Source of the DNA: Thiotrichales bacterium
GTDB taxonomy: Bacteria > Pseudomonadota > Gammaproteobacteria > Thiomicrospirales > Thiomicrospiraceae
Direction: 5' to 3'
Assembly: GCA_016938655.1 (NCBI GenBank)
Contig: JAFGUG010000023.1
Location: 62,001-126,000, forward strand
DNA: 64,000 nucleotides
In this document: positions 6,363 to 27,193 of the stretch, in pieces
Position numbering within the stretch: position 1 is the first letter of the stretch
How the letters are laid out: every line of letters starts with the position of its first letter
The notes under the pieces: model-generated
What the model was told of the DNA's origin: nothing
Databases searched by the model: none
Seen by the model: the letters and a program-made list of their open reading frames with translations, nothing else
Translations under genes and position numbers: made by a program

Positions 6363-6379
6363 TATGGTGGCTACACCGG
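6363..6379. repeat. Island left attachment repeat (truncated copy of tRNA-Met 3' end)
   Basis: TATGGTGGCTACACCGG, identical to 27115-27131, which is the 3' end of the tRNA gene. Confidence 0.9.
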
Positions 6380-6737: not shown

Positions 6738-7262
6738 CTAATCGTCTTCTAACTGATTAGCAATGTAGTCCAATATCTCATTGATTTCAGTAGTGTCAAG
6801 TTTGTCATTAAGATTGCGATAATAATCGAGTTTTTTTAAAAACCTAGACTTCTTTCTAACTACATCAAATAACTCGTCAAATTTTGAAATGACATTCCAC
6901 TCCGATTCAAAGGCTCCCGTAAAACTACTCTGTGTGTACCCTAATCTTTTGTTGTATTTTAAGTATCTGCCTTTAATTTTTTTTCGTTTCGACTCAGATA
7001 GATGTATTGCTTTATTTCTAGCAGAATAATCTTTCCAATAGATGTAAACTCCATCATTCTTAATCGTAATGGAGGGGTAAAACTTAGGAATAAAATTATT
7101 ATTCCGTGCCACAATTTTAATCACTTCTTCATATTGCTCATACAACAGCAGCGCAACGTTATAAAGTTCAACCTGCTCAATCACTTGGATTTCAATCAAC
7201 ATTTCATTTAATTCTTTTTTTTCTAATTCACCCTGTTCATTTCTCAAAAAATAACCACTCAT
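6738..7262 (-). CDS. Hypothetical island protein; possibly MobI-like mobilisation accessory protein
   Basis: 174 aa intact ORF; GVYIYWKDYSA...KKIKGRYLKYNKRLGYTQSSFTGAFESEWNVISKFDELFDVVRKK resembles in outline the K-G-x-Y/F...E...R pattern I recall for MobI proteins. Homology not verified. Confidence 0.6.
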   Translation of the reverse strand: MSGYFLRNEQGELEKKELNEMLIEIQVIEQVELYNVALLLYEQYEEVIKIVARNNNFIPKFYPSITIKNDGVYIYWKDYSARNKAIHLSESKRKKIKGRYLKYNKRLGYTQSSFTGAFESEWNVISKFDELFDVVRKKSRFLKKLDYYRNLNDKLDTTEINEILDYIANQLEDD

Positions 7263-8598: not shown

Positions 8599-11500
8599 GT
8601 GTCTAGCTTTATTATTGATAACAAAACAACAGAAAAACTGTATGAATATTTAGAATCGAATATTTCAAACGAATCCAAAGTTTCGTTATTAATCCAGGCC
8701 CTTACCCTTTCTGGTTTTGAAGCACTTGAAAAACCATTATCCAAATCCTCTACCCAACTTATCCTTGCAACCAATAAAACGCCCTTAGCACAAAGAATTG
8801 CTTGCGAATCAGGTGAAGAAAAACTTCTAAATCGACTCAACCAAAAGGACTTAGCAAAGCGTTTATTAAAGTGGTTAAACACCAAGGTTGAAATCAAGGG
8901 CATCCCTGAAAACCGAATAACCCAAAACCTATTCCATATTGAAAACGCACAAGGCCAAAGCTTTATCCAAGGTTCATCCCCTCTTACGGCTTCGGGGTTA
9001 GGCTTGATTCAATCAACTCGTCTTGAAATGAATATGGGCGAAACAATCCCTTCACAAACAGAAGCTTTAAAAACTTGGTTTGATTCTCTCTGGAATGACA
9101 ATACCACCTCTCAAAACATTTTAGCCGACTTAAAATCAGCAACTGAATTACTCGCCCAAGATCAAACCCCAGAAACCATCTACTTTTTAACCTTGTACAA
9201 AATCTTTAATGATTTACTCGAAGATATTGATGAAGAATCGATTGTCAAAACAAAAACAGGGTTTAAAGAAACACGAGTTTGGGACAAGCTTTATAAATTT
9301 CAAAAAGATGGTGTGCTTGGAATCATCGACAAGCTAGAACGTCATAACGGCTGCATACTTGCAGACTCTGTGGGTTTGGGTAAAACCTTTGAAGCCCTTG
9401 CGGTTATTAAATATTACGAACTTCGAAACGACCGTGTTTTAGTACTGGCACCCAAAAAACTAAGGGACAACTGGACTTTATATACCCAAAACGACAAACG
9501 TAACCTGCTTGCCCAAGACCGTTTTAGTTACGATGTTTTGAACCATACCGATTTAACCCGTGAAAAAGGTCTATCAGGAGACATTAACCTAGAAACCGTT
9601 AATTGGGGTAACTATGACCTTATCGTGATAGATGAATCACACAATTTTAGAAACGCCAGCACCTCAGATGTAAGACATACTCGCTACTCTAAACTGATGG
9701 AAGACATTATTTCCAAAGGTGTTAGAACCAAGGTATTAATGCTATCAGCCACACCCGTTAACAACCGCTTAAATGACTTAAAAAATCAAATTGCATTTGT
9801 CACCGAAGGAAATGATTACGCCCTTGCAGATTTGGGCATTCTAAACATCTCACAAACCCTTAAACGCACCCAGAGCAAGTTTAATGAATGGTTAAAGCTG
9901 CCAGATGCCAGTCGTACTACTGAAAACCTGCTTAATACAGTGAACTTTGATTATTTCAAATTACTCGATCTATTAACAATTGCTCGTTCTCGTAAGCACA
10001 TTGAGAAATACTACAATTTAGAAGAAATTGGTCAATTTCCTACCAGACTAAAACCACACAATATCCAAGCTGACTTCGATACGTTATCTGAATTTCCATC
10101 TCTTAGAGAGATAAATAAAACCATTAGTCGTTTAAATATGAGCACCTTCTCACCACTGAAATACGTTCAACTCAATAAACGTAAAGACTACGAGAAAAAA
10201 TACGATACACGCTTAAAAGATAGCCAATCTGTATTTTCTCAACTGGATCGTGAAAAAAGCTTAGTTGGTTTAATTAAAATCAATATGCTTAAACGTTTGG
10301 AAAGCTCCATCCACTCTTTCCACCTAACAGCTGAACGCCTGCTTAAAGACGTTGAAAGACGAATCAGCCAATTAGAACACCACGCTCAGGGTGAAGTGGA
10401 AGAACTCAAAATATTAGAAACTGACATTGATTCAGCAGAACTTGAAGCATTAATGGTGGGGAACAAGGTCAAAGTGCTGATTCAAGATATGGATCAGGCT
10501 CAGTGGATGTACGACCTAAAAGAAGACCAGCGTTATCTAATCGAAATTGTAAATGCCGCCAAAGCCATCACCGCTGAACGTGATCAAAAACTGAAATTAC
10601 TTAAACAACAAATCAGTAACAAAATTCAAAATCCATTAAATCCAGATAACAAGAAAATCATTATCTTTACCGCTTTTGCCGACACTGCACTATACCTTTA
10701 TAAACACCTATCAGACTGGGCTAAGGAAGAGCACAATATTTATTCAGCACTGGTTGTTGGAGCGGGAACCAATAAAACCACCAACAAACTAGTACGTTCA
10801 GATTTAAATGAAATTCTGACCGCTTTCTCGCCCATTTCAAAAGAACGAGATAAAACGGGCTTACCCGATGAAGCGGAAATTGACCTGCTCATCGCAACCG
10901 ACTGTATTTCAGAAGGTCAAAACCTTCAAGATGGTGATTTTCTCATTAACTATGACATTCACTGGAATCCTGTGAGGATCATCCAACGGTTCGGTCGAAT
11001 TGACCGCTTGGGCTCAAAAAACACCCAAATACAGCTGGTTAACTTCTGGCCAAATATGGAGCTAGATGAATACATAGACCTAGAAGCACGTGTATCAGGT
11101 CGAATGGTACTTTTGGATGTAAGTGCCACAGGTGAAGAAAACATCATTGATGCGAACAATGCCGGCAGAATGCGAGATTTAGACTACCGCAGAAAGCAGC
11201 TTAAAGAATTGCAAGACACCGTTTTAGATTTAGAAGACATTTCCGGTGGTTTATCCATTACAGACCTAACCCTCAATGATTTTAAAATCGATTTATCTAA
11301 TCAACTTAAAACCCACAGTGAGATATTAGAAAACTCGCCCAATGGCTTGTATTCAGTTATACAGTTAGATGACCATCTACAAAACGCAGGCTTACAACCA
11401 GGCGTTTTATTCTGTTTAAAAAGTCTAAGTGAAGACTTTGCCAAAACCCATCAAAGCAATGAACCTTACGCCCTTTACCCATATTTCCTAGTGTATGTGG

Positions 11501-11799
11501 CACAAGACCAAACCATTACCCTGCCTTACACCCAAGCTAAGAAGACATTAGATATTTTAAAAAAACACAGCTTAGGCAATAAAACCCCTAACCAAGCCTT
11601 GTTTAAACAAGTTCAAAGTTCAACTCAGTACCAAGCACACTTAAAATCAGCTATTGAACATATTCAAGGTAAAAAAGCCGAAGAAGGGATTAATAGCCTG
11701 TTTACTCGTGGCGGCACTCAACTCGATGCTTTTAGTGGCACAACTGATTTTGAAGTCATCAGCTATCTAGTATTAGTCAATACAGTCGAGGAAAACTAG
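8599..11799 (+). CDS. SNF2-family (SF2) helicase with PLD-like N-terminal region
   Basis: 1066 aa; Walker A LADSVGLGKTFEALAV, DESH box (IVIDESHNFRN), SATPVNNRLNDL, helicase C motifs (TDCISEGQNLQDGDFLINYDIHWNPVRIIQRFGRIDRLGS). N-terminus contains FIQGSSPLTASGLG, like a PLD second half-motif. GTG start with RBS. Confidence 0.9.
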   Translation: MSSFIIDNKTTEKLYEYLESNISNESKVSLLIQALTLSGFEALEKPLSKSSTQLILATNKTPLAQRIACESGEEKLLNRLNQKDLAKRLLKWLNTKVEIKGIPENRITQNLFHIENAQGQSFIQGSSPLTASGLGLIQSTRLEMNMGETIPSQTEALKTWFDSLWNDNTTSQNILADLKSATELLAQDQTPETIYFLTLYKIFNDLLEDIDEESIVKTKTGFKETRVWDKLYKFQKDGVLGIIDKLERHNGCILADSVGLGKTFEALAVIKYYELRNDRVLVLAPKKLRDNWTLYTQNDKRNLLAQDRFSYDVLNHTDLTREKGLSGDINLETVNWGNYDLIVIDESHNFRNASTSDVRHTRYSKLMEDIISKGVRTKVLMLSATPVNNRLNDLKNQIAFVTEGNDYALADLGILNISQTLKRTQSKFNEWLKLPDASRTTENLLNTVNFDYFKLLDLLTIARSRKHIEKYYNLEEIGQFPTRLKPHNIQADFDTLSEFPSLREINKTISRLNMSTFSPLKYVQLNKRKDYEKKYDTRLKDSQSVFSQLDREKSLVGLIKINMLKRLESSIHSFHLTAERLLKDVERRISQLEHHAQGEVEELKILETDIDSAELEALMVGNKVKVLIQDMDQAQWMYDLKEDQRYLIEIVNAAKAITAERDQKLKLLKQQISNKIQNPLNPDNKKIIIFTAFADTALYLYKHLSDWAKEEHNIYSALVVGAGTNKTTNKLVRSDLNEILTAFSPISKERDKTGLPDEAEIDLLIATDCISEGQNLQDGDFLINYDIHWNPVRIIQRFGRIDRLGSKNTQIQLVNFWPNMELDEYIDLEARVSGRMVLLDVSATGEENIIDANNAGRMRDLDYRRKQLKELQDTVLDLEDISGGLSITDLTLNDFKIDLSNQLKTHSEILENSPNGLYSVIQLDDHLQNAGLQPGVLFCLKSLSEDFAKTHQSNEPYALYPYFLVYVAQDQTITLPYTQAKKTLDILKKHSLGNKTPNQALFKQVQSSTQYQAHLKSAIEHIQGKKAEEGINSLFTRGGTQLDAFSGTTDFEVISYLVLVNTVEEN

Positions 11800-11801
11800 G
11801 C

Positions 11802-12623
11802 GTGTCTTTTATCGAGTCATTCAACTTCCCTTCTCCGCTTCTCATTAACCAAAAACTCACTAAAAAGAGTTTTTATGAAATGGGCAGCCTTAGTAATGCC
11901 CAACAAAAGCTATTACAAGAACACGTTGACACGATTGAACTCTCCGCACACCTAACCGCTGATAAAACGAATATCCCTGTATATAAAACTGATAAAAATG
12001 AATATCTCGAAATCTTGCTCATTGAAGTTCAACTTAAAAATAACCAGGCCTGGTCAGATTCCAGTAATAAACAAAGCAGTAAACACATTAAATCACTACA
12101 CGAACTATTTCATAAAGCCATTCCCTACCCAGTAGTTCTTATAATCCACTCAGGGCAACAGAGCCAGTTATCATTGGCTGAAAAGTTCATCAATCAAGCC
12201 GATATAGAGAATGACAAACTCATTATGAATGAACTCATTCAAACTGACTGGCTAGACCCAAACCAATTGCAACCAGAAGAACAGCTATTCTTAGATTCCA
12301 TACAATACAACCAACTCCATAAGCAAAACCTTTACACCTTTTACCAAAGCCTGATCCAACGTTTTACCGCTCTATTGCTTGCAAAACAAACGGGTAAATT
12401 CCATTTAGCCTCACCATTAGAGCAACCTAGACAAAACGATATTCACCAACAGCGCCAAAAGCTAAAAACTATTATGCAACTGGACAGGGAAATCACTGAA
12501 CTCAAAAACAAAATAGCCAACTGCAATCAGTTCAATGAAAAAGTAGAACTCAATATGCAATTACAAAAGCTAAATAACCAACTAAAACAGGTGAAATGGC
12601 ATTTACAGCAAAACTGTTTATAA
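11802..12623 (+). CDS. DUF4391-like protein
   Basis: 273 aa, GTG start just after the SNF2 stop; length, internal pattern and position next to SNF2 helicase and Mod match DUF4391 proteins as I remember them. Confidence 0.7.
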   Translation: MSFIESFNFPSPLLINQKLTKKSFYEMGSLSNAQQKLLQEHVDTIELSAHLTADKTNIPVYKTDKNEYLEILLIEVQLKNNQAWSDSSNKQSSKHIKSLHELFHKAIPYPVVLIIHSGQQSQLSLAEKFINQADIENDKLIMNELIQTDWLDPNQLQPEEQLFLDSIQYNQLHKQNLYTFYQSLIQRFTALLLAKQTGKFHLASPLEQPRQNDIHQQRQKLKTIMQLDREITELKNKIANCNQFNEKVELNMQLQKLNNQLKQVKWHLQQNCL

Positions 12624-12714
12624 TGGGGTTCAACAATACCCCTCCTGCTACCCAAGTCTTTTTAAGACAAGAACAGCACCCTGCGAGGGGTTACTTGTTT
12701 TTGAGGAATGAAAA

Positions 12715-13815
12715 GTGAATCAACAAACAGATCTAAGAGGTTACCTTCCTCCTAAATTACCGTTAGAACAAGCACTAGAAACCAAAACCGTGCTTAAAAA
12801 AACCATCTCTGCCAATGTCGCTTTGGCAAGGTTAAATGGTGTTACGGCTCTTATTCCCAACCAAGCTGTTTTAATCAACTCTTTGATTTTGCAAGAAGCA
12901 AAAGATTCCAGTGAAATCGAAAACATCATTACCACGCACGATGACTTATACCGTTCAACCATAGACCAAACCAATTTATCTCAATCGGTTAAAGAGGTGC
13001 AATATTACGGTGAAGCACTGCGTAAGGGTTTTGAGCTAGTTACCCAAAACAAACTCCTGCTTACAAAAGACATTGTGCAAGTTCAATCGATTCTAGAAAA
13101 AAACGATGCGGGCATTCGTAAACAAGGTGGCACCAAACTTAAAAACGACCAAACGGGCGAAGTAATATTTACCCCACCACAGTATGAAATTGATATTCGT
13201 GATGCTCTCGCCAACCTAGAACAATACATTAATGATTCAGAATTGGATGATATAGACCCACTGATTAAGATGGCGATTATCCATCACCAGTTTGAAACCA
13301 TACACCCGTTTTACGATGGTAACGGGCGTACAGGCCGAATCCTCAATATTCTGTACTTGGTTTTAAATGGGTTGCTTGATTTGCCAATTCTCTACCTCAG
13401 CCGTTACATCACAACCCATAAATCGGATTATTACGATTTATTGCAAAGAGTAAGAACTGAACAGGCTTGGGAAGAATGGATTTTATTTATGCTGGATGGT
13501 ATTGAACAAACCGCCAATCAGACCATTGACTTAATACAGAAAATCGACAAATTAATGTCTGAAACAGCCACGGTGATTCAGCAGAAATCACCCAAACTCT
13601 ACTCCAAAGACTTATTGGAGGTACTGTTTGTTCATCCCTACACCAAAATTGAATTTACCGAGCAAGCTATGAATGTTTCAAGGAAAACCGCTTCAACCTA
13701 TTTAAATAAATTGGTTGATCTGGATATACTGCACCCCGTCAAAATGGGTAAAAGCAAATACTTTATTAACACTCGCTTTTATCAACTTTTAAGTGGCAAG
13801 CTACCTAATGAGTAA
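12715..13815 (+). CDS. Fic family protein with N-terminal inhibitory helix and C-terminal winged-helix region
   Basis: 366 aa; Fic motif HPFYDGNGRTGR, inhibitory motif SSEIEN (S/T-x3-E-N); GTG start. Confidence 0.93.
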   Translation: MNQQTDLRGYLPPKLPLEQALETKTVLKKTISANVALARLNGVTALIPNQAVLINSLILQEAKDSSEIENIITTHDDLYRSTIDQTNLSQSVKEVQYYGEALRKGFELVTQNKLLLTKDIVQVQSILEKNDAGIRKQGGTKLKNDQTGEVIFTPPQYEIDIRDALANLEQYINDSELDDIDPLIKMAIIHHQFETIHPFYDGNGRTGRILNILYLVLNGLLDLPILYLSRYITTHKSDYYDLLQRVRTEQAWEEWILFMLDGIEQTANQTIDLIQKIDKLMSETATVIQQKSPKLYSKDLLEVLFVHPYTKIEFTEQAMNVSRKTASTYLNKLVDLDILHPVKMGKSKYFINTRFYQLLSGKLPNE

Positions 13816-13930
13816 AAAACACCAAAAATGTAACATGACCTAAATAACATGAGTAAAAAACAACAAAATTTACTCACGTTGACCAACGAACAAGTAAAAA
13901 ACGCAAGAATTTACCCAAACAGGAAACACC

Positions 13931-15583
13931 ATGACCCAAGCACCCGACATTCAAACACTTAACGGCCAAAGTATGAACCTAACCGAGCACAATATCGAAC
14001 AGTTAAAACAGCTATTCCCCAATGTGTTTACAGAAGGCAAAATTGACTTTGAAGCCCTTAAATCTGAGCTGGGTGAATTTACTGAAACCGATAACGAACG
14101 TTACCAATTTACTTGGAATGGTAAGGAGCAAGCCAAACGCATTGCCACCACGCCAACTTTGGGAACCTTACGCCCAGCACCAGATGAATCGGTGAATTGG
14201 GACACCACCGAAAATATGTATATTGAGGGGGATAACCTAGAAGTCTTAAAGCTCCTGCAAAAATCCTATTTTGGCAAAGTCAAAATGATCTATATCGACC
14301 CGCCATACAATACTGGGAATGATTTTGTTTACAAGGATGATTTTAAAGATAACCTATCAAATTATCAGCGTCTTACTGGTCAAAAAGATGACGAAGGCAA
14401 TCCCCTTACCACGAATACAGACAGTTCAGGACGATACCATTCCAACTGGCTGAATATGATGTACCCTCGCCTTAAACTCGCTAGAAACCTGCTTAAAGAC
14501 GATGGTGTGATTTTTATCTCTATTGATGACAATGAAGTGCATAACCTTAGAAAGATTTGTGATGAAATTTTTGGAGAGGGTAAATTTATAGGAGCAATTG
14601 CCTGGCAACATAGCTTACAAGGCAAAGGATACTCAGGTAAGCTATCCATCCACCATAACTATATTATCTGTTATTGCAAATCACCTTCTTTTGAACTTGG
14701 TATGTTTAAAAGAACAGACGAAGACAACAAAAACTACTCGAATCCCGATAATGACCCAAATGGCGAATGGAGAACAGGGGATGTTAGAAATGCACTTTAT
14801 AGGCCTAATTTAATATATCCAATTAAAACTCCTTCTGGAAATGAAATACAACCACCAGAAAAGGGGTGGCGTTGGAGTCAAGGGACGGTTCAAGAAAAAA
14901 TTAAAACTGGTGAGATTATTTTTAGCAAAGATGAATCTAGAATAATTAGAAAAATTTATTTAAAAAACCAAGAAGGAAGAGTCCCTGAAAGTTTGTTTCT
15001 AGGGAAAATTTTTGGAACGTCAAGAGATGCAAATTCAGAATTAAAAAAGCTTTTTGGTGATAATGTACCTTTTGACACACCCAAGCCTACATTACTTATA
15101 TCTAAACTATGTGAACTGAATCTACACAAAAATGAAATCGCACTGGACTTTTTTTCAGGTTCAGGCACCACAGCAGATTCAATAATGCAAGTAAATGCAG
15201 AAGATGATGGCAATCGAAAATTTATTTGTGTGCAAATACCAGAGCCTAGTCCAGATGACTCTGTGGCTAACAAATCTGGTTACAAAACCATAGCCGAAAT
15301 TGGTAAAGAACGCATTCGCCGTGCTGCTAAAAAAATTAAAGAAGAGCACCCTGATACCCAAGCGGACCTAGGATTTAAAGTCTTTAAACTTGATACCTCT
15401 AATATAAAAAAATGGCAACCTAACCTAGACGACTTAAATAACGACCTGCTATCAGCTGTGGATAACATTCTGCCAGACCGCACCAGCCAAGATTTGCTCT
15501 TTGAAGTGATCGTCAAATACGGTCTACCTTTAACCCTACCCATTGAACAAATCAACATTCAAAACAACGGTCAAGCCTACTAG
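13931..15583 (+). CDS. Type III RM DNA adenine methyltransferase Mod (N-terminal 550 aa, ends at in-frame TAG)
   Basis: Motif IV DPPYNTG, motif I LDFFSGSGTTADS; frame continues after TAG with a conserved Mod C-terminus. Confidence 0.93.
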   Translation: MTQAPDIQTLNGQSMNLTEHNIEQLKQLFPNVFTEGKIDFEALKSELGEFTETDNERYQFTWNGKEQAKRIATTPTLGTLRPAPDESVNWDTTENMYIEGDNLEVLKLLQKSYFGKVKMIYIDPPYNTGNDFVYKDDFKDNLSNYQRLTGQKDDEGNPLTTNTDSSGRYHSNWLNMMYPRLKLARNLLKDDGVIFISIDDNEVHNLRKICDEIFGEGKFIGAIAWQHSLQGKGYSGKLSIHHNYIICYCKSPSFELGMFKRTDEDNKNYSNPDNDPNGEWRTGDVRNALYRPNLIYPIKTPSGNEIQPPEKGWRWSQGTVQEKIKTGEIIFSKDESRIIRKIYLKNQEGRVPESLFLGKIFGTSRDANSELKKLFGDNVPFDTPKPTLLISKLCELNLHKNEIALDFFSGSGTTADSIMQVNAEDDGNRKFICVQIPEPSPDDSVANKSGYKTIAEIGKERIRRAAKKIKEEHPDTQADLGFKVFKLDTSNIKKWQPNLDDLNNDLLSAVDNILPDRTSQDLLFEVIVKYGLPLTLPIEQINIQNNGQAY

Positions 15584-15793
15584 GCCTGGAATGTCGCAAA
15601 CAATGCAATGATAGCCTGTTTTGACGAAAACCTAACCCTAGAAGCCGTTCAAGCTATCGCCGCCCTAAGCACCCTAGAAAACCCAGTGCTAAGAGTCGTC
15701 TTCCGAGACACCAGCTTCCAAAACGACATAACCAAAACCAACGCCATCCAACGCCTAAAACAAGCCGGCATTGAAGATGTTTTGAGTATTTAA
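15584..15793 (+). pseudogene. C-terminal fragment of Mod in the same frame as 13931-15583
   Basis: AWNVANNAMIACFDENLTLEAVQAIAALSTLENPVLRVVFRDTSFQNDITKTNAIQRLKQAGIEDVLSI, the usual end of type III Mod proteins. Possible reinitiation ATG at 15608. Confidence 0.85.
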
Positions 15794-15808
15794 ATAAGGA
15801 ACATAACT

Positions 15809-17821
15809 ATGAATTCAAGCTACTTTTATACTCAAATTCAAGAAAATGAAACAAATCGCCAAATACTAAACAACATAAAATCATATGCTGAAACTAATAA
15901 AAAACAAACGTTCGTTGTTAATCGACCATTAGGAGATAAAAAGTACAATTATAACTACCAAGATAATGCCCTAATCCTTTTAATACCAAAGCACAAAATC
16001 ATATTCTTAGATCTGCATGGAAATAACGAAGACTTTGAAGAGTTTCTAGATGAATTCGTGGAAGATCTTGGATATATTTCTGACAAGTTCATGTATAAAG
16101 AATCTATTGGTAGACCCAAAACATGGAAAAAAAATATAACAACAAGTATCGATCTGACTAGTCATAATGACTCAATAGCTAAAATTATTGACCAAAGCAT
16201 TTTGACGCCAGAGAACCAAAGAATATGTGAGTTAGTGATTTCTTTAATTACAGGAAGTATTAATGATATAGAAAAAATTGGTGTTGAAACTCCTGAAACA
16301 CTGTTAGATAAAGTTAAAAGTAAAATTATTTTATTTGATGGAGAACAAACAAGATTTATATATCAAGAAAACACAAAAAAAAGAACATCTATTCAAGGCT
16401 TATCCGGTACCGGCAAAACTGAATTATTACTTCATAAATTAAAAGAGTTATATACAACTAAGAAAGACTCAAGAATCATGTTTACCTGTTTTAATGAAAT
16501 CTTAGCATCAAGTTTACGGAAAAGAATTCCGGACTTTTTTAATTTTATGAAAGTAGAAGAACAAATTCTTTGGCATGAACGACTATGGATGGTTAGGTCT
16601 TGGGGATCCCGAAACAATAAAAACTCAGGAACTTATCGCTACATTTGTGATTACTATGGCATTGACTTTAACGCCTATAATTACAACATGTCTTTTGATA
16701 AAGCTTGTTCAATCGCAATTACCGAAATCAAGAGTATTTTCTCAAATGAAGGTGCTAGACAAGCTTTTGACTATGTTCTCATAGATGAAAGTCAAGATTT
16801 TCCAAGTTCATTTTTTGAGCTCTGTGAATTAGTTACCAACAATACCGTGTACGTAGCAGGAGATATATTTCAAAATATTTTTGATGCGAACCCAAACAAC
16901 TCCACCAATACAGATTTTATTTTGAATCGCTGTTACAGAACTGACCCTAGAACTTTGATGTTTGCTCACGCTGTTGGAATGGGGCTTTTTGAAGAGCACA
17001 AATTAAATTGGCTTGAAGACAGTGCATGGAAAGCATGTGGTTATCTAATTAATAAACAAGACAACACCTACTATTTATCCAGAGAACCAATTAGACGATT
17101 CGAGGACCTTGATATTGAAAAATTCGAAAGTATTAAACTAAAAACAATAGAGTTTGAATCAGCAATAGACGTTATAAATAATTTAATCACAATTATTAAA
17201 GATTTGAAAAATGAAAACAACACTCTAACACCTGATGACATTGCCATCATATTTTTAAATGATGGAAAAAGAACTTATAACCTCATCGACCAAACAGCAA
17301 GAGAAATTTTTACTGAATTTCAATGGAGTGTAAACAAAGCATATGAGAGCAAAAGCAAAATACCAGGTACATTGTTTATAAGTAATAGAAACAATGTTAA
17401 AGGCTTGGAGTTTCCTTTTGTCATCTGCGTATCTTCTGATTTAAAGCATGATTTAAAATATAGAAACGCTCTTTACATGTCCCTGACACGGTCATTTCTT
17501 CGTTCATATCTACTTTTATCAAACAGAAACTATATTGCCCCTATTGAAGAGGGTGTAAAAGAAATAAACGCCTCTGGTGTTATTAAAACAAGAGAACCAA
17601 ATCAAGCAGAAAAAGACAAAATAAAACAAACAATTATAGAATTTAATAAAGAATACAGTATGTCGTACAGGGAATTTTTATATGCTATTTTTGATAAACT
17701 TGAAATAAAAAAACACAGTCGTTCAAAATTAGAAAAAATGTTAGATTCCCTTGAATTAGACGATAAGTTTAATGAATCAATTGTCATTGATTTTATTAAC
17801 CGAAACATAGATTTTATTTAG
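15809..17821 (+). CDS. SF1 (UvrD/Rep-like) helicase inserted between mod and res
   Basis: 670 aa; GLSGTGKTELLLHKL, VLIDESQDF, VAGDIFQNIF, NRCYRTDPRTL, VKGLEFPFVICV, YMSLTRSFLRSYLLLS. Confidence 0.9.
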   Translation: MNSSYFYTQIQENETNRQILNNIKSYAETNKKQTFVVNRPLGDKKYNYNYQDNALILLIPKHKIIFLDLHGNNEDFEEFLDEFVEDLGYISDKFMYKESIGRPKTWKKNITTSIDLTSHNDSIAKIIDQSILTPENQRICELVISLITGSINDIEKIGVETPETLLDKVKSKIILFDGEQTRFIYQENTKKRTSIQGLSGTGKTELLLHKLKELYTTKKDSRIMFTCFNEILASSLRKRIPDFFNFMKVEEQILWHERLWMVRSWGSRNNKNSGTYRYICDYYGIDFNAYNYNMSFDKACSIAITEIKSIFSNEGARQAFDYVLIDESQDFPSSFFELCELVTNNTVYVAGDIFQNIFDANPNNSTNTDFILNRCYRTDPRTLMFAHAVGMGLFEEHKLNWLEDSAWKACGYLINKQDNTYYLSREPIRRFEDLDIEKFESIKLKTIEFESAIDVINNLITIIKDLKNENNTLTPDDIAIIFLNDGKRTYNLIDQTAREIFTEFQWSVNKAYESKSKIPGTLFISNRNNVKGLEFPFVICVSSDLKHDLKYRNALYMSLTRSFLRSYLLLSNRNYIAPIEEGVKEINASGVIKTREPNQAEKDKIKQTIIEFNKEYSMSYREFLYAIFDKLEIKKHSRSKLEKMLDSLELDDKFNESIVIDFINRNIDFI

Positions 17822-17831
17822 TAGCATTAAA

Positions 17832-18497
17832 ATGAAAAAATTTGAATTTTACCTAAATAAAATGGATGTTGATTTATTCTTCAAGCCTATTCGGCGCAAA
17901 GAAGATTCAATTCAAGTTTTAATGAACGCTATAAAAATCATGCTATTACCAGCAATCGAAAGTGAGGAAGCACTAGGCAAATTAACCTTAATCAAAGACG
18001 GACGCATGAGTCGATTATTCTTTATTTCTGAAAAGAAAATTTTTTCAATCTTTTTCCCATTTTTCGTAAACTCGGATGATGATTGCTTAGTATTCTCGTC
18101 CTCACAAATAGATTCTATTGATCATAAAATTACTTCTGATGTTATTTCCCTTTTTTCCTGCGAAGAAAAAATTGACTCTGAATGCTTTTTAGATTTTATG
18201 GAGCCTCTATGGGAAGATCCAATAAATTACCATCGTAATATGTGGCCCTTTGTCAAAGAACTACTACTTATTGAAGATGGATACATTAGGTTCGATTATG
18301 ATCCAGACAATCACAATGAATTATTACATCCTATAAATCACTTTGACATTTTCTATTCAAGATCCCAAGTTAAGATAGGCTCTCACACCGAACTTGATGA
18401 AGAAAGGTTTATTGACATATTAGACTTAGCATCAGATTGCCATTTTTTAGCTCAATGTAATGAGATCAAAAACTGTGTAAAGAGCTTAACCAAATAA
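17832..18497 (+). CDS. Hypothetical protein, DUF2290-like
   Basis: 221 aa; IRFDYDPDNHNELLHPINHFDIFYSRSQVKIGSHTELDEERFIDIL resembles the YDP...HP..H...F pattern I associate with DUF2290; needs profile search. Confidence 0.6.
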   Translation: MKKFEFYLNKMDVDLFFKPIRRKEDSIQVLMNAIKIMLLPAIESEEALGKLTLIKDGRMSRLFFISEKKIFSIFFPFFVNSDDDCLVFSSSQIDSIDHKITSDVISLFSCEEKIDSECFLDFMEPLWEDPINYHRNMWPFVKELLLIEDGYIRFDYDPDNHNELLHPINHFDIFYSRSQVKIGSHTELDEERFIDILDLASDCHFLAQCNEIKNCVKSLTK

Positions 18498-18510
18498 AAA
18501 GAATTAAACG

Positions 18511-21500
18511 ATGAAACTCCAATTCGACCAAAACCTACCCCATCAAAAATCCGCTTGGGAAGCCGTTGTTAGCTTGTTTGAAGGCCAAGAAAGTTGTGCT
18601 GTGCCTTTTACAATGCCGCAGATAAATGTACCAACGCCAAAAGGATCTGGTGGTGATAAGTTGATGGCGTTAGATTATGGTCAGGAATCCCAGCTGGGTA
18701 CTTCTAACCGTTTAGTTTTAAACGAAGAAGAACTGTTAGACAACCTTAAACGGGTTCAGTTAAAGCACGGTTTAAAGCCGGTAAAGACACTTGATAAAAA
18801 CGATTTAAATTACACCGTTGAGATGGAAACCGGTACGGGTAAAACCTACGTTTATCTTCGCTCTATCTATGAACTCAATCAGTCTTATGGTATGACCAAG
18901 TTCATTATTGTAGTGCCCTCCATTGCGATTAAAGAAGGTGTTAAAAAGTCACTGGAAATTACCAAAGATCACCTGTCAGCCATTTACAAAGGCGTGAATG
19001 CCGATACCTTTGTTTATGATTCTAGCAACCTTGAACAAGTTCGTAACTTTGCTGAATCTAGCCATATTCAGATTATGGTGATTAACATTGATGCTTTCCG
19101 TAAGAGCTTTACCGACCCTTCAAAAGAAACCGCAGCCAATATTATTCACCGTGCTAATGACAGACTTGAAGGTATGCGCCCTATTGAACTGATTGCTAAA
19201 ACCAATCCAGTCGTCATTATTGATGAACCACAATCTACTACAAATACTGAAATAGCTAAAAAAGCCATTAAGTCTTTAAATCCAATATTCACAATTGGGT
19301 TTTCAGCAACACACAGAGAGAAGTATCTCCCTATCTACAAACTTGATGCCGTTGATGCGTACAACAATAAACTGGTTAAACAAATTGCCGTGCTCCCAGT
19401 TTTACCAGAAGACGACAATAATAATGCTTATATCAGACTCGTGAATGTTCGCAATAAAAATGGCGTTTGTGAAGCACAATTAGAGTTTGAATCCCTGACC
19501 AGAACTGGAAGTATTAAACGTGAAAAGAAATGGTTAAAACAGGGTGCAGACCTTTATGAGTTAAGTGGCCGGGACATTTATGAAGGCTACATTATTAAAG
19601 ATATTTCCGTTGCCGATGGTGATGAATGGATAGACTTTACCTCGACCGATGATTACATCGAATTGGGTCAAAGTATTGGTGGCGTTGATGATTTAGCTCT
19701 AAAACGTTTACAGATTGCCAAAACGATTGAAAAACACCTTGAACGTGAATTGGTCCTCAATGACCAAGGCATTAAAGTGCTCAGTCTTTTCTTTATCGAC
19801 AAGGTAGCCAACTATCGTGTTTATGATGAAGAAAACCGACCAGGCCTGGGTATTTATGCACGTATGTTTGAAGAAGAGTTTTTGCGTTTGGCCAAGTCTC
19901 GAAAGTTTCAATCGCTGTTTAACGAAGTTAATTTAGAAGTTGAAGTCTCTAAAATACATAACGGTTATTTTGCAGCCGACAAAAAAGGCATTGCCAAGGA
20001 TACCAAAGGAAACACCCAAGCGGATGAGTCTGCATATGACTTGATTATGAAAGATAAAGAAAAGCTACTGGATTTAAAAACACCGTTGCGTTTTATCTTC
20101 TCCCACTCGGCGTTGCGTGAAGGTTGGGATAACCCGAATGTCTTCCAAATTTGTACCTTAAACGAAACCGCCTCTACCATTAAAAAACGACAAGAGATTG
20201 GGCGTGGTTTGCGTTTAGCAGTAGATCAAACGGGGAACCGAGTGACTGATAGTAGTTTTTCTATTAATACACTTACCGTTATTGCTAACGAATCTTATAA
20301 CGATTTTACTGCTACCCTGCAAAAAGAAATTGAAGAAGAGGATGGTATTAAGTTTGGGGTGATTGAGGATCACGCCTTTGCCAGCATCGTTATTCAACAA
20401 ACGGAAAACGATATTGTCTTTATGGGTGCTGAGGATTCCGCTAAGCTCTGGGATCATCTTAAAACCAATAATCTAATAGATGGTAAGGGTAAAGTTCAAG
20501 ACAGCCTTAAAACCGCTTTGAAACACGACACCCTAACGTTACCGGAAGACTTTGCACCCTTTAAAGTTGAAATTGAACGCATCTTGAAGAAAGTGGCTGG
20601 TGGACTGGATGTTAAAGATGCCTCTAAATCACACGTTGCTACGCTTAAAAAAGAAGTAGTGCTAGGTGAAGATTTTCAAGCTCTTTGGAATCGTATTAAA
20701 TACAAGACGATATACCAAGTGGACTTTAACCTAGATAAACTGATTTTTGATTGTATTCACGAAATGAAGGTCAATATGACCATTGCGAAACCCAAATTTA
20801 AAACGGGCTTAGCTGAAATTACAATGGACGTTAGCGGTGTTGGTGTCAACAATGTGAAAGAGAACGTGCAAACCTATGATGCACATTATCAATCCTTGCC
20901 AGACATACTGACCTATCTGCAAAATAAAACGCAGTTAACTCGCAAAACCATCGCCAGAATGCTAACTGAAAGTGGCAGACTAAAAGACTTTACTAAAAAC
21001 CCACAAAAATTTGTGGAGCGAACCTTAGAAATTATTCAACGCAAAAAGATGCACGCACTGGTTGATGGTATTAAATACGAGAAAATTGGCGACCAAACGT
21101 TTTATGCCCAAGAATTGTTTGAAGAGCGTGAGCTGAGTGGTTACCTGCAACAAAATATGATGGCGGTCGATAAAAGCGTATACAGCCACATTGTTTACGA
21201 TTCTGCGACCGAATCGACCTTTGCCCAAGGTTTAGAGCAAAATGACGATGTTAAGCTTTATACAAAGCTTCCGAGCTGGTTTAAGATTGAAACCCCCCTG
21301 GGTTCTTATAATACAGACTGGGCGGTATTAATCGAACAAGATGGTTCTGAAAAACTCTATTTCGTTATCGAAACCAAAAGCAGTCTTCTACAAGAAGATT
21401 TACGCCTTGCTGAGCAAGACAAAATCAAATGCGGTACTGCTCATTTTGAAGCGCTTGAAAATGATATTCAATTCATTCAAGCAACAAAGATTAATGACTT

Positions 21501-21519
21501 GGTAGATCGTATTGCTTAA
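18511..21519 (+). CDS. Type III restriction enzyme Res subunit
   Basis: 1002 aa; METGTGKTYVYLRSIYEL, IIDEPQ, GFSATHREKY, LREGWDNPNVFQICTL, C-terminal nuclease-like region YFVIETKSSL. Confidence 0.95.
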   Translation: MKLQFDQNLPHQKSAWEAVVSLFEGQESCAVPFTMPQINVPTPKGSGGDKLMALDYGQESQLGTSNRLVLNEEELLDNLKRVQLKHGLKPVKTLDKNDLNYTVEMETGTGKTYVYLRSIYELNQSYGMTKFIIVVPSIAIKEGVKKSLEITKDHLSAIYKGVNADTFVYDSSNLEQVRNFAESSHIQIMVINIDAFRKSFTDPSKETAANIIHRANDRLEGMRPIELIAKTNPVVIIDEPQSTTNTEIAKKAIKSLNPIFTIGFSATHREKYLPIYKLDAVDAYNNKLVKQIAVLPVLPEDDNNNAYIRLVNVRNKNGVCEAQLEFESLTRTGSIKREKKWLKQGADLYELSGRDIYEGYIIKDISVADGDEWIDFTSTDDYIELGQSIGGVDDLALKRLQIAKTIEKHLERELVLNDQGIKVLSLFFIDKVANYRVYDEENRPGLGIYARMFEEEFLRLAKSRKFQSLFNEVNLEVEVSKIHNGYFAADKKGIAKDTKGNTQADESAYDLIMKDKEKLLDLKTPLRFIFSHSALREGWDNPNVFQICTLNETASTIKKRQEIGRGLRLAVDQTGNRVTDSSFSINTLTVIANESYNDFTATLQKEIEEEDGIKFGVIEDHAFASIVIQQTENDIVFMGAEDSAKLWDHLKTNNLIDGKGKVQDSLKTALKHDTLTLPEDFAPFKVEIERILKKVAGGLDVKDASKSHVATLKKEVVLGEDFQALWNRIKYKTIYQVDFNLDKLIFDCIHEMKVNMTIAKPKFKTGLAEITMDVSGVGVNNVKENVQTYDAHYQSLPDILTYLQNKTQLTRKTIARMLTESGRLKDFTKNPQKFVERTLEIIQRKKMHALVDGIKYEKIGDQTFYAQELFEERELSGYLQQNMMAVDKSVYSHIVYDSATESTFAQGLEQNDDVKLYTKLPSWFKIETPLGSYNTDWAVLIEQDGSEKLYFVIETKSSLLQEDLRLAEQDKIKCGTAHFEALENDIQFIQATKINDLVDRIA

Positions 21520-21612: not shown

Positions 21613-22665
21613 CTAAACCCCACCATACAGATCCAATTCTTTTTTTCGTCTTATAGCCTCCTCCATCAAATCCAAAAACTGCCTATCTGTTTTGCTAAGC
21701 TCGGATTTTTTTTCCTTTTCTCTCAACTTATTAAGATAATCATCTTGTTCATTAAAATTATCATTCACAATGGTAAGGGAAGAGTCTTGAACGTGCGGCG
21801 GTATATCTTGCTCAGGTAATGAATTATCCGTCTCGCACGGCTTTTTGGGAGAGTCATTTAAAAGAGAACTAGTAATAGAGTTATCTTGTGAACTTATTTG
21901 ACCCGCTTTCATTGAACTTATTTGACCTATATCACTACAATTATTTAACCCGTTCGTTGCTTCAATTTGACCTGCATCACTGCGATTATTTGACCTGTTA
22001 TCGTTGACAACTTCACATCTACTTTTACACTTATCTGAACAGCCCTTTTTCCAAGTCTTGCCACCGTTAAAATTTATCTTCCATTGTGATTTAGTAACAA
22101 CAAGCCCCCCCTTTCCTGAAAAACTTAAATTGCGATAGTAATCGACATTTGCCTCAGTTTTAACTTTCATTTTAACTAACATCTTATTAGCACATAACAT
22201 TCTTAAAACTTTAATAATTACCGCTTGACTAGACCCCGTATCTCTATTGAATTTTGTTTTCGATATGTAGCAAGTTTTCTTATCTTTTCGGACTTGATGC
22301 GAGGTTTGACCAATGAAAATTAAAGCCTTTAACTGTGCAGCAGAAAAACTATTGTTAGACACAAAGTTAAAAAACTCATTTTCAAAGGGAATACTCGAAC
22401 CCAACTGTTTCATAGAAACAAAATAACCATCAACGATAATAAAACCTTTCTTTTTTAAAGCTGACTTAGATTTTGAGATATTTACAGGAGACACTCCAAA
22501 ATTTTTAGCTACCCGAGCATTCTGAAAATACACCTTCTCACCACTATTTCCCATACGCCTAGCAACAAACAACAAAATTAAAATCTCATTCTTACTCAAT
22601 TTATTTTCAAAAATAATCTTGATTGTTTCTCTGTGTAAATTAAATGTATTTATCTTTTCGTTCAT
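21613..22665 (-). CDS. Replication-initiator-like protein with winged-helix N-terminal domain
   Basis: 350 aa; HTH-like segments (YFQNARVAKNFGVSPVNISKSKSALKKKGFI; ISKTKFNRDTGSSQAVIIKVLRML), Cys cluster KKGCSDKCKSRC, low-complexity middle region containing DNA repeats. Confidence 0.6.
   Translation of the reverse strand: MNEKINTFNLHRETIKIIFENKLSKNEILILLFVARRMGNSGEKVYFQNARVAKNFGVSPVNISKSKSALKKKGFIIVDGYFVSMKQLGSSIPFENEFFNFVSNNSFSAAQLKALIFIGQTSHQVRKDKKTCYISKTKFNRDTGSSQAVIIKVLRMLCANKMLVKMKVKTEANVDYYRNLSFSGKGGLVVTKSQWKINFNGGKTWKKGCSDKCKSRCEVVNDNRSNNRSDAGQIEATNGLNNCSDIGQISSMKAGQISSQDNSITSSLLNDSPKKPCETDNSLPEQDIPPHVQDSSLTIVNDNFNEQDDYLNKLREKEKKSELSKTDRQFLDLMEEAIRRKKELDLYGGV
21894..21995. repeat. Five iteron-like repeats TTATTTGACC inside the Rep-like ORF
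   Basis: 21894 TTATTTGACC, 21918 TTATTTGACC, 21941 TTATTTAACC, 21963 CAATTTGACC, 21986 TTATTTGACC; start-to-start spacing 24, 23, 22, 23 bp. Confidence 0.8.
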
Positions 22666-24961: not shown

Positions 24962-25456
24962 TTAATAATTGTCGTCATCAAATGATGAAAATGAATCTTC
25001 GAACATATCACTTGAATCATCACTAAACATATCTGTTGATGAGTCTTCGAAAACATTACTGAAAGAATCATCAAAGGCGTTATTAGCATCCTCAAAAGAC
25101 ATTGCCGTCTCATCATTCATCCAATCGTCTTCAACCACACCATAAGCATTTCCACGAATATCAATAGTGCAATCAACCATTGGCGTACCATCAATATTTA
25201 CACCAGGGAAAGTACTACCCTCTAAATAATCATCATCAAAAATGTTATTACTGATATGGTCATCACCGTCATATTCACTATTATCCGGCTCAATTAGGTC
25301 AAATGGCAATTCATCATCGTTATAAGCGTAAAAAACTGTATCCATCGCTGATAAGCGCTCATAAATAGATGAATCAGAAACAACTGACTTTTGCTCAACT
25401 TCCGCTTGTGGATTTGAGTTTAGAATCATTGAAAAAATATTGGCAAATACATTCAA
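24962..25456 (-). CDS. Extremely acidic hypothetical protein (164 aa)
   Basis: By eye about 42 D/E versus 3 K/R; repetitive C-terminus FDDSFSNVFEDSSTDMFSDDSSDMFEDSFSSFDDDNY. Confidence 0.7.
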   Translation of the reverse strand: MNVFANIFSMILNSNPQAEVEQKSVVSDSSIYERLSAMDTVFYAYNDDELPFDLIEPDNSEYDGDDHISNNIFDDDYLEGSTFPGVNIDGTPMVDCTIDIRGNAYGVVEDDWMNDETAMSFEDANNAFDDSFSNVFEDSSTDMFSDDSSDMFEDSFSSFDDDNY

Positions 25457-25596: not shown

Positions 25597-26844
25597 TCAT
25601 TTGTTATCTAAATGACTCTTAATATATTTACTCCATTTATTCATCATTTTAGTTCTAACCTTCATATATTGTGCTTTGTTATAAACACCTTTTACCCCGC
25701 CAACCTGATGGCTTAGCTGCGCTTCAATTTCAGCATCATTAAACCCTAACTCATCTCTTAATAAAGTACTGGCGCAATGTCTAAAACCGTGTGCAGATGC
25801 TTCTGTAATACCGTTTCGTTTAAGTGCATTCGTTAATGTACCTGCACTAATTGGTTTGCGATCGCCTGCCCTGTAAGTGGATAAAAAAACATACTCTGAA
25901 TGACCTGATACTGCTTTCAATTTTTTTAACATTTTCAAAACTTGCTTTGAAATCGGAACAATAAACTCCCTATCCTTTTTCATTTGAGCAGCACTAAAAT
26001 CAATTTTTTTGTTCTTAAAATCAACTTGTTCCCATCTTAAACCTGTAATTTCAGATGGTCGAGTAAACAAATGTAAGCCCATTACAAGACAAGCTTTAAC
26101 CTCTTGCACAGCACGAATGGAATATACTTTCCGCACTAACTCTTTATATTCAGTACTTGTAGTAACATGCCTAAAATTTTTACTTTTCTTGGCTGGAAAT
26201 AAAACTTTCGGAACCATCTTTGCATAATTCAAATCCGTAAATGCCTTACCGTTGTCGTAATTTTTGGCAATAGCCCATTCATACATTCCTTTTAGAACAT
26301 TGGCAACTTTATCTCTTACATTAAGGATACCAAGGTCTTGTATTTTTGACAGAACCCCAGTTAGTTCTTTAACTTTAACTTCATCTATATACATATTACC
26401 TATGAAGGGTAATACGTGTTTGCGAAAGCGTAAATTATGCTTGTGAAGTGTTTGTTCTTTCCAATCATGTGCCATTTTGAATTCACAGTAATCTTCATAA
26501 ACTTCTTGAAATGTTTTTCTTTCAAAACCATCATTAGCTACTTTCTTTTGAAGCAAATTAGCACTTTGAAATGGATCCAAACCATCAGCTAAAAGTGAAT
26601 TATTTCGCTCGACTTCAAAAATAGCTTGCGACAAGGTTAGGTCAGGAATAACACCTAACTTACGAAATGTATATTTACCTTCTAAGGTTTTATAACGGTA
26701 CTCCCATCTTTTTTTATTTTTTGTTGTAACAAACAAATATAGGTTTTCTGAGATAGGTATTCTTTCACCCTTAACGCCACCGTTAATTTGAATAATGTCT
26801 AAACTGCTTAAATTTCTATCTGATATTTTTTTATTTAGGATCAT
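25597..26844 (-). CDS. Tyrosine recombinase / phage-type integrase (P4-like, DUF4102 N-terminus)
   Basis: 415 aa; HLFTRPSEITGLRWEQVDF, SAHGFRHCASTLL, LSHQVGGVKGVYNKAQY: catalytic R...H-x-x-R...Y residues. Confidence 0.95.
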   Translation of the reverse strand: MILNKKISDRNLSSLDIIQINGGVKGERIPISENLYLFVTTKNKKRWEYRYKTLEGKYTFRKLGVIPDLTLSQAIFEVERNNSLLADGLDPFQSANLLQKKVANDGFERKTFQEVYEDYCEFKMAHDWKEQTLHKHNLRFRKHVLPFIGNMYIDEVKVKELTGVLSKIQDLGILNVRDKVANVLKGMYEWAIAKNYDNGKAFTDLNYAKMVPKVLFPAKKSKNFRHVTTSTEYKELVRKVYSIRAVQEVKACLVMGLHLFTRPSEITGLRWEQVDFKNKKIDFSAAQMKKDREFIVPISKQVLKMLKKLKAVSGHSEYVFLSTYRAGDRKPISAGTLTNALKRNGITEASAHGFRHCASTLLRDELGFNDAEIEAQLSHQVGGVKGVYNKAQYMKVRTKMMNKWSKYIKSHLDNK

Positions 26845-27114: not shown

Positions 27115-27131
27115 TATGGTGGCTACACCGG
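27115..27131. repeat. Island right attachment repeat within tRNA-Met 3' end
   Basis: TATGGTGGCTACACCGG, identical to 6363-6379. Confidence 0.9.
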
Positions 27132-27193
27132 GATTTGAACCTGGGACCCCATCATTATGAGTGATGTGCTCTAACCAGCTGAGCTATGTAGCC
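27117..27193 (-). tRNA. Elongator tRNA-Met (anticodon CAU)
   Basis: GGCTACATAGCTCAGCTGGTTAGAGCACATCACTCATAATGATGGGGTCCCAGGTTCAAATCCCGGTGTAGCCACCA folds as cloverleaf, anticodon loop CTCATAA, encoded CCA; very close to E. coli metT as remembered. Confidence 0.97.

Follow-up and report, generated by a model that had tools for sequence, protein, structure and literature searches.

Effectors nested in restriction-modification (R-M) operons are already known: PrrC lies in the hsd locus of EcoprrI, a type IC system, and genes for RhuM, DOC and HEPN proteins are likewise found in R-M operons (PMC3710099; PMC12707154). Loci for BREX also carry embedded back-up effectors, which are variable and occur in over half of the systems (PMC12839542). 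Helicase+DUF2290, found on a P4-like satellite, is a gene pair directed against T7 (PMC9122126), and a pair of SNF2 and N6-methyltransferase genes has been noted on a Lactococcus plasmid (PMC6098607). The locus described here, from a Thiotrichales bacterium (assembly GCA_016938655.1, contig JAFGUG010000023.1, positions 62,001 to 126,000, the 64-kb stretch analysed and in the following called the window), has features of all of these. Between positions 8599 and 21519 it contains seven open reading frames, all on the + strand, as a preliminary description of the sequence had listed them. With a probability of about 0.8 we read them as a four-gene type III R-M operon, SNF2-DUF4391-Mod-Res, which is located on a tRNA-Met integrative island and has two foreign defence modules, a SoFic gene and a helicase gene pair, nested inside it.

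In the window SNF2, DUF4391, Mod and Res follow each other in this order on one strand. Relatives were collected by scanning GTDB genomes with an alignment of the SNF2 protein, which yielded 80 loci, and by adding eight plasmid loci (88 in all); the 69 that run through to Res form the complete set, and 46 complete contigs from viral collections form a second one. Each of the 69 complete loci from genomes and plasmids keeps the gene order SNF2-DUF4391-Mod-Res, which is also present in the 46 viral-collection contigs. The hosts of the 69 loci are Pseudomonadota, Bacillota, Bacteroidota, Desulfobacterota, an archaeal plasmid and others. In a literature search of partial coverage neither a published name nor a description of the four-gene operon or of its slots was found, and it thus appears to be a widespread operon that is still unnamed. 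In the preliminary description the genes for SNF2, DUF4391, Fic, the helicase and the DUF2290-like protein had all been regarded as extras to a type III system, and mod and res alone had been considered as the part that might prove conserved. This is correct for fic and for the helicase pair; SNF2 and DUF4391, however, belong to the core, being conserved as well in 69 of 69 complete loci.

The same survey bears on the view that the seven genes are one integrated defence system, in which all effectors are licensed or restrained by the signal that Mod sets and no gene is dispensable. The genes are indeed closely packed on one strand, several of them being 2, 10 or 13 bp apart; besides the longer gaps before fic and mod that had been pointed out, there is one of 225 bp between mod and the helicase gene, which shrinks to 15 bp when the full mod frame is counted. 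PrrC, moreover, is an example of an embedded effector that the R-M host is able to hold (PMC12707154; PMC3710099). However, the seven-gene set was seen in none of the 115 complete relatives, and 33 of 69 loci keep the core without any cargo (by the slot count given below, 34 of 69 have a slot filled). The helicase pair is normally free-standing, and slot contents vary independently of the core. An integrated seven-gene system is therefore most improbable, and a modification signal shared by the modules, which had also been proposed, finds no support, SoFic and the helicase pair standing alone elsewhere. What survives in outline is the proposal of several stacked modules, in the form of a core and its cargo.

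The cargo is found in defined slots. In the 69 complete loci the distances that separate the core genes have a bimodal distribution, almost all of them being either shorter than 150 nt or longer than 400 nt, and a slot is counted as filled when the gap is 400 nt or more. By this measure the junction between SNF2 and DUF4391 is filled in 4 loci, that between DUF4391 and Mod in 16 and that between Mod and Res in 28; at least one slot is filled in 34 of 69 loci and in 23 of 46 of the viral-collection set. Every genome of the window's class with DUF4391 beside SNF2 and Mod carries cargo (5 of 5, the window's included). Cargo reading frames were called mechanically, and some of the small or overlapping ones are spurious. 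Those with a Pfam match amount to 37 proteins, 36 of them encoded on the operon strand, and they belong mostly to defence or toxin-antitoxin families: GmrSD, YhcG/DUF1016, RhuM, Fic, Bro-N, PLDc_2, Schlafen AlbA_2, AAA-ATPase with PDDEXK_9, UvrD-like helicases, AAA_21 with DUF4276, SMODS with S_4TM (CBASS), DarT with Macro (DarTG), AAA_13 (PrrC/RloC-like), GGACT, DUF4062 and KilA-N.

Some of the remaining cargo may be of interest in itself. One family of about 240 amino acids occurs in three distant hosts (L011:18298-19038, L053:15965-16687 and L079:15876-16586); it has a conserved EVRSSF stretch and no Pfam or PADLOC match and is a candidate new effector. Small proteins with hydrophobic N-termini, which are possible membrane effectors, are encoded at L056:14676-15362, L090:15857-16426, L095:13967-14695 and L072:10991-11632; none has a PADLOC match, those of L056, L090 and L072 are also without a Pfam match, and the one of L056 has a relative in L169. 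At L164:5858-9073 the SNF2 gene is joined in frame to the end of an apparent GmrSD cargo gene just before res, apparently by a deletion through the operon.

How fast the slots are refilled can be seen from closely related loci. For example, L045 and L047, whose SNF2 proteins are 99% identical and whose DNA is highly identical across the core, carry different genes in both slots; the DNA match breaks at both slots and also in the middle of mod, at the target-recognition region, where the two Mod proteins differ. In L043 and L079 (95% identical) the difference is a single gene that lies after the stop of mod and before the start of res. When occupancy is mapped on an SNF2 tree of 113 tips, the slot between Mod and Res requires at least 34 changes, no fewer than with shuffled labels (mean 33.6), and the slot between DUF4391 and Mod 23 as compared with 28.2 in the shuffles. 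From the slot differences at near-identical cores and the change counts it follows that the cargo turns over much faster than the core. The junctions between DUF4391 and Mod and between Mod and Res, and rarely that between SNF2 and DUF4391, are thus cargo slots that are refilled fast and are occupied in about half of the relatives.

It should be considered that the slots could be merely tolerated insertion points, with cargo that hitchhikes with the R-M genes and is functionally unconnected to them. The great diversity of the cargo and the lack of phylogenetic signal in the occupancy between Mod and Res are what one would expect in this case. However, the cargo is nearly all co-directional, occupies the spaces between genes cleanly and consists mainly of defence and toxin-antitoxin families, which indicates that co-expression of defence genes is selected for. 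Such a content would not be expected from hitchhiking alone, although a general defence-island effect might produce it. We consider hitchhiking a serious but weaker possibility than functional nesting of defence modules in the four-gene operon.

Two slots of the window are filled. The one between DUF4391 and Mod contains the gene for a SoFic-type Fic adenylyltransferase (12715-13815, + strand; PADLOC SoFic 403 bits), in which Fic_N (PF13784), PF02661 and the SoFic-like C-terminal domain (PF21248), the Fic motif HPFYDGNGRTGR and an inhibitory-helix motif, SSEIEN, are all present, although with 419 bits the protein remains below the NCBI SoFic equivalog cut-off of 550. Judged from these motifs, the active site together with the inhibitory helix would fit an effector that is released on a trigger. 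Fic is missing from most relatives and recurs as cargo in L049, L057, L073 and L068 (in the last after DUF4391).

The slot between Mod and Res contains genes 10 bp apart for an SF1 helicase of the STM2767 family (15809-17821, + strand; NF053713 909 bits, cut-off 550; GC content 0.307) and for a helicase-associated protein of the STM2766 family (17832-18497, + strand; NF053714 192 bits, cut-off 70; GC content 0.32), both thus above the cut-offs of their NCBI equivalog models. To the PADLOC models of the published Helicase+DUF2290 families the resemblance is distant (Helicase 91 bits; DUF2290 a marginal 17 bits, E 8.5e-4), and the pair, whose second protein had been called DUF2290-like, may or may not belong to these families. 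The pair has a GC content of 0.31 as compared with 0.37-0.395 for the core. In 10 of 10 other contexts viewed (4 plasmids, 6 viral contigs) it is free-standing, in L016 it is found next to the operon, separate from it and in the opposite orientation, and among the loci examined only the window has it inside.

The core itself carries a lesion. Mod (13931-15583, + strand; PADLOC MTase_III 729 bits) is a type III N6-adenine methyltransferase with the motifs DPPY and FSGSGT in the order characteristic of the beta class, and its methyltransferase and target-recognition regions are complete. An in-frame TAG (15581-15583, + strand), however, removes the 69 C-terminal residues; beyond it the frame stays open, with homology to the Mod C-terminal domain as present in 57 relatives, but is left untranslated (15584-15793, + strand). 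The alignment with these 57 complete relatives places the TAG inside an insertion of 3-4 residues that is unique to this mod gene. The stop also lies within a quasi-palindrome with a 7-bp stem (15572-15588), which may hint at the origin of the insertion. In EcoP15I one of the Mod subunits contacts Res extensively through its C-terminal domain (PMC4490356); a complete Mod with this domain is counted among the features of type III R-M, and most of the domain is lost here. Docking of Res should therefore suffer, and methyltransferase and target recognition would probably be spared. Res (18511-21519, + strand; PADLOC REase_III 1072 bits) has both the SF2 motor and the PD-(D/E)XK endonuclease, as is evident from the motifs TGTGKT, DEPQ, GRGLR and DWAV..ETK and from the RE_endonuc domain (PF19778, 124 bits). 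The operon has the two genes that type III R-M needs; in the window cargo stands between them. The helicases, Fic, Mod and Res of the window all keep their catalytic motifs.

It might be argued that the window represents an R-M operon in decay, in which mod is broken and selection is left on the nested modules alone or on nothing, and the loss of 69 residues, as well as split mod genes in several relatives, would speak for this. However, the other core reading frames, Res and SNF2 included, are of full length with intact motifs, and the methyltransferase and target-recognition regions of Mod are complete. Moreover, the frameshifts found in mod of some relatives fall in simple repeats and are suggestive of a reversible switch, not of decay. 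Decay is accordingly a rather unlikely explanation. In two related genomes a run of nine G is the site of a frameshift in mod (L045:15240-15290 and L047:16550-16600), and Mod of this operon type is likely to be phase-variable there; at L085:17020-17070 the mod gene of a Methanobrevibacter (archaeon) operon is broken beside a (GA)n repeat, a possible phase-variation tract.

Still somewhat less probable is that the stop is an error of assembly or consensus and that the operon is fully functional. The genome is fragmented (2.93 Mb in 108 contigs, 7.7% contamination), and the small quasi-palindrome surrounds the stop; however, the TAG is part of a short in-frame insertion and not a single substituted base, and the rest of the operon, which spans 13 kb in all, is clean. 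Our preferred reading is that the core of the window is at present most likely modification-competent at best and restriction-impaired, with intact cargo modules.

The two upstream core genes deserve attention. The first (8599-11799, + strand) encodes an SNF2-family SF2 ATPase (PADLOC C3a139 'HKD+Snf2' 434 bits; Pfam SNF2-rel_dom, PF00176, and Helicase_C) with an N-terminal pseudo-PLD domain of about residues 1-224. That this part is PLD-like, as had been noted, is borne out by its AlphaFold2 (AF2) model, for which Foldseek gave SauUSI and BfiI as top matches (7clg, E 4.4e-8). The catalytic HxK motif, however, is lost: the H and K columns hold Q and L in the window protein; among the 70 family members 44 have the Q and 29 the L, and H is not among the common letters of column 109. 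The PLD part is therefore not counted as a nuclease, and nuclease activity of this domain appears unlikely throughout the family. Two other assignments of the protein were rejected: Hma, because HmaA scores only 85 bits versus 434 for C3a139, and DISARM, because NF038317 (DrmD) scores 146 bits versus a cut-off of 610 and the operon is devoid of the partner genes DrmA, DrmB and DrmC.

The second core gene (11802-12623, + strand) encodes a DUF4391 protein (PF14335, 178 bits), whose AF2 model (pLDDT 93.9) retrieved no known fold, the best PDB and BFVD matches being no better than E 0.02. It is homologous to the N-terminal domain of Eco57I/IIG-type methyltransferases that are found beside SNF2 (hhalign probability 97%, E 4.5e-11, 180 columns), with Mod as control giving 0.2% in the same comparison. 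Such methyltransferases, together with an AAA protein, take the place of Mod-Res in four loci whose SNF2 is of the same family (L178:12383-17706, L182:3336-8018, L187:5449-11057 and L216:10532-15819), which can be regarded as a sister system. Because their N-termini are homologous to it, DUF4391 is probably an adaptor that joins the SNF2 translocase to a DNA methyltransferase, which would give this domain, mentioned in one paper of the partial literature collection searched, a functional frame.

Taken together, the operon might work as follows. Mod and Res, by analogy with their families, for which type III action is established, would mark self DNA and cut unmarked DNA; the SNF2 translocase could help in target scanning or loading, with the dead PLD domain as platform for DNA binding or dimerisation and DUF4391 as methyltransferase adaptor. 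Homologous recombination within the conserved core genes would swap the cargo, which, being co-transcribed with the core, would travel and be expressed together with it and so provide independent layers of back-up: SoFic would be self-inhibited until a trigger and then modify a cell protein, and the helicase pair would act against phages by itself. Core function, cargo trigger and the effect of the TAG are what we infer here. Some points weigh against our reading. The relatives were found via SNF2, so that conservation of Mod-Res given SNF2 is demonstrated and not the converse. In composition fic is the same as the core, both having the same GC content, and thus bears no mark of foreign origin. 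The effect of the TAG is deduced from EcoP15I, and read-through or an assembly error is possible. And the cargo may interact with the core, in the way PrrC and EcoprrI do, rather than be independent of it.

A more far-reaching proposal, which we offer tentatively and consider rather unlikely to hold in full, is that SNF2-DUF4391-Mod-Res is a distinct unnamed restriction class, in which a portable unit of dead-PLD SNF2 and DUF4391 can be combined with a type III Mod-Res pair or, alternatively, with a type IIG-like methyltransferase, and in which the slots would serve as a general guard platform whose effectors, held or sensed by the core, are released when phages disable it. If our main reading is right, the operon would be a natural trap for defence genes, and an unannotated gene in either junction a good effector candidate. 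Near-identical cores with different cargo permit direct tests of the dependence of effectors on a restriction core, a question that has been standing since PrrC.

As for the surroundings, the operon lies on an integrase-bearing island, as had been proposed. A tyrosine integrase gene (25597-26844, - strand; PF00589, phrog_1) adjoins a tRNA-Met gene (27117-27193, - strand; ARAGORN), at whose 3' end the right boundary is located (27115-27131). The left boundary is a 17-bp copy of this 3' end (TATGGTGGCTACACCGG, 6363-6379), an exact repeat that is the single match in positions 1-26900. The GC content of the island is below that of its flanks. An empty attachment site could not be demonstrated in the congener G192, in which the urtA region is without tRNA-Met and the gsp genes lie elsewhere. 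Internal promoters and terminators of the operon, when searched for, were not convincingly more numerous than in shuffled sequences, and no transcription units were deduced from them. The operon is flanked by genes for a weakly MobI-like protein, which is under the cut-off (6738-7262, - strand), and for an O-like replication/HTH protein (21613-22665, - strand), and the island may accordingly be mobilisable or self-replicating. A protein of 164 amino acids encoded next to the integrase (24962-25456, - strand) is very acidic, with many D and E, and without a PHROGs match; it could be a DNA mimic.

Since effectors nested in restriction loci are known, what appears to be new is the four-gene type III-like host and its slots, of which the partial literature search gave no published description. 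With type III R-M (EcoP1I, EcoP15I) the operon shares the Mod and Res families, the gene order and the beta-class motif order of Mod; the classical systems, however, need mod and res only, whereas here SNF2 and DUF4391 are conserved upstream and cargo is placed between the genes. BREX also combines a core locus and variable embedded effectors with an SNF2 helicase and an N6-methyltransferase, but among the seven proteins there is no Pfam or PADLOC match to BrxC, DUF499 or PglZ, the effector is a type III Res, and membership in BREX or a BREX-related group was rejected. Loci with SNF2 and an Eco57I/IIG-type methyltransferase (L182, L187 and L216, with an AAA protein) likewise have a C3a139-model SNF2 beside a methyltransferase with DUF4391-homologous N-terminus; in them a single large methyltransferase replaces both Mod and Res, and they resemble the gene pair of the Lactococcus plasmid (PMC6098607). 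As to the cargo, SoFic, a single-gene Fic defence candidate of PADLOC, has the same domain architecture, intact Fic motif and inhibitory motif, the window protein differing in its score below the equivalog cut-off and in being nested rather than alone. Helicase+DUF2290 and STM2767/STM2766 are equally composed of an SF1 helicase gene followed by that of a partner of about 210 amino acids, and they are two-gene units usually found on mobile elements, whereas the pair in the window is distant from the PADLOC Helicase and DUF2290 models and is nested in an R-M operon. Loci of the PrrC/EcoprrI type, finally, have in common with the operon a nested effector as second defence layer, and their passenger families Fic/DOC, RhuM and PrrC/RloC recur in four-gene operons; they are known mainly from type I systems, whereas here the effectors sit in a type III-like operon of four genes, two junctions of which are often refilled.

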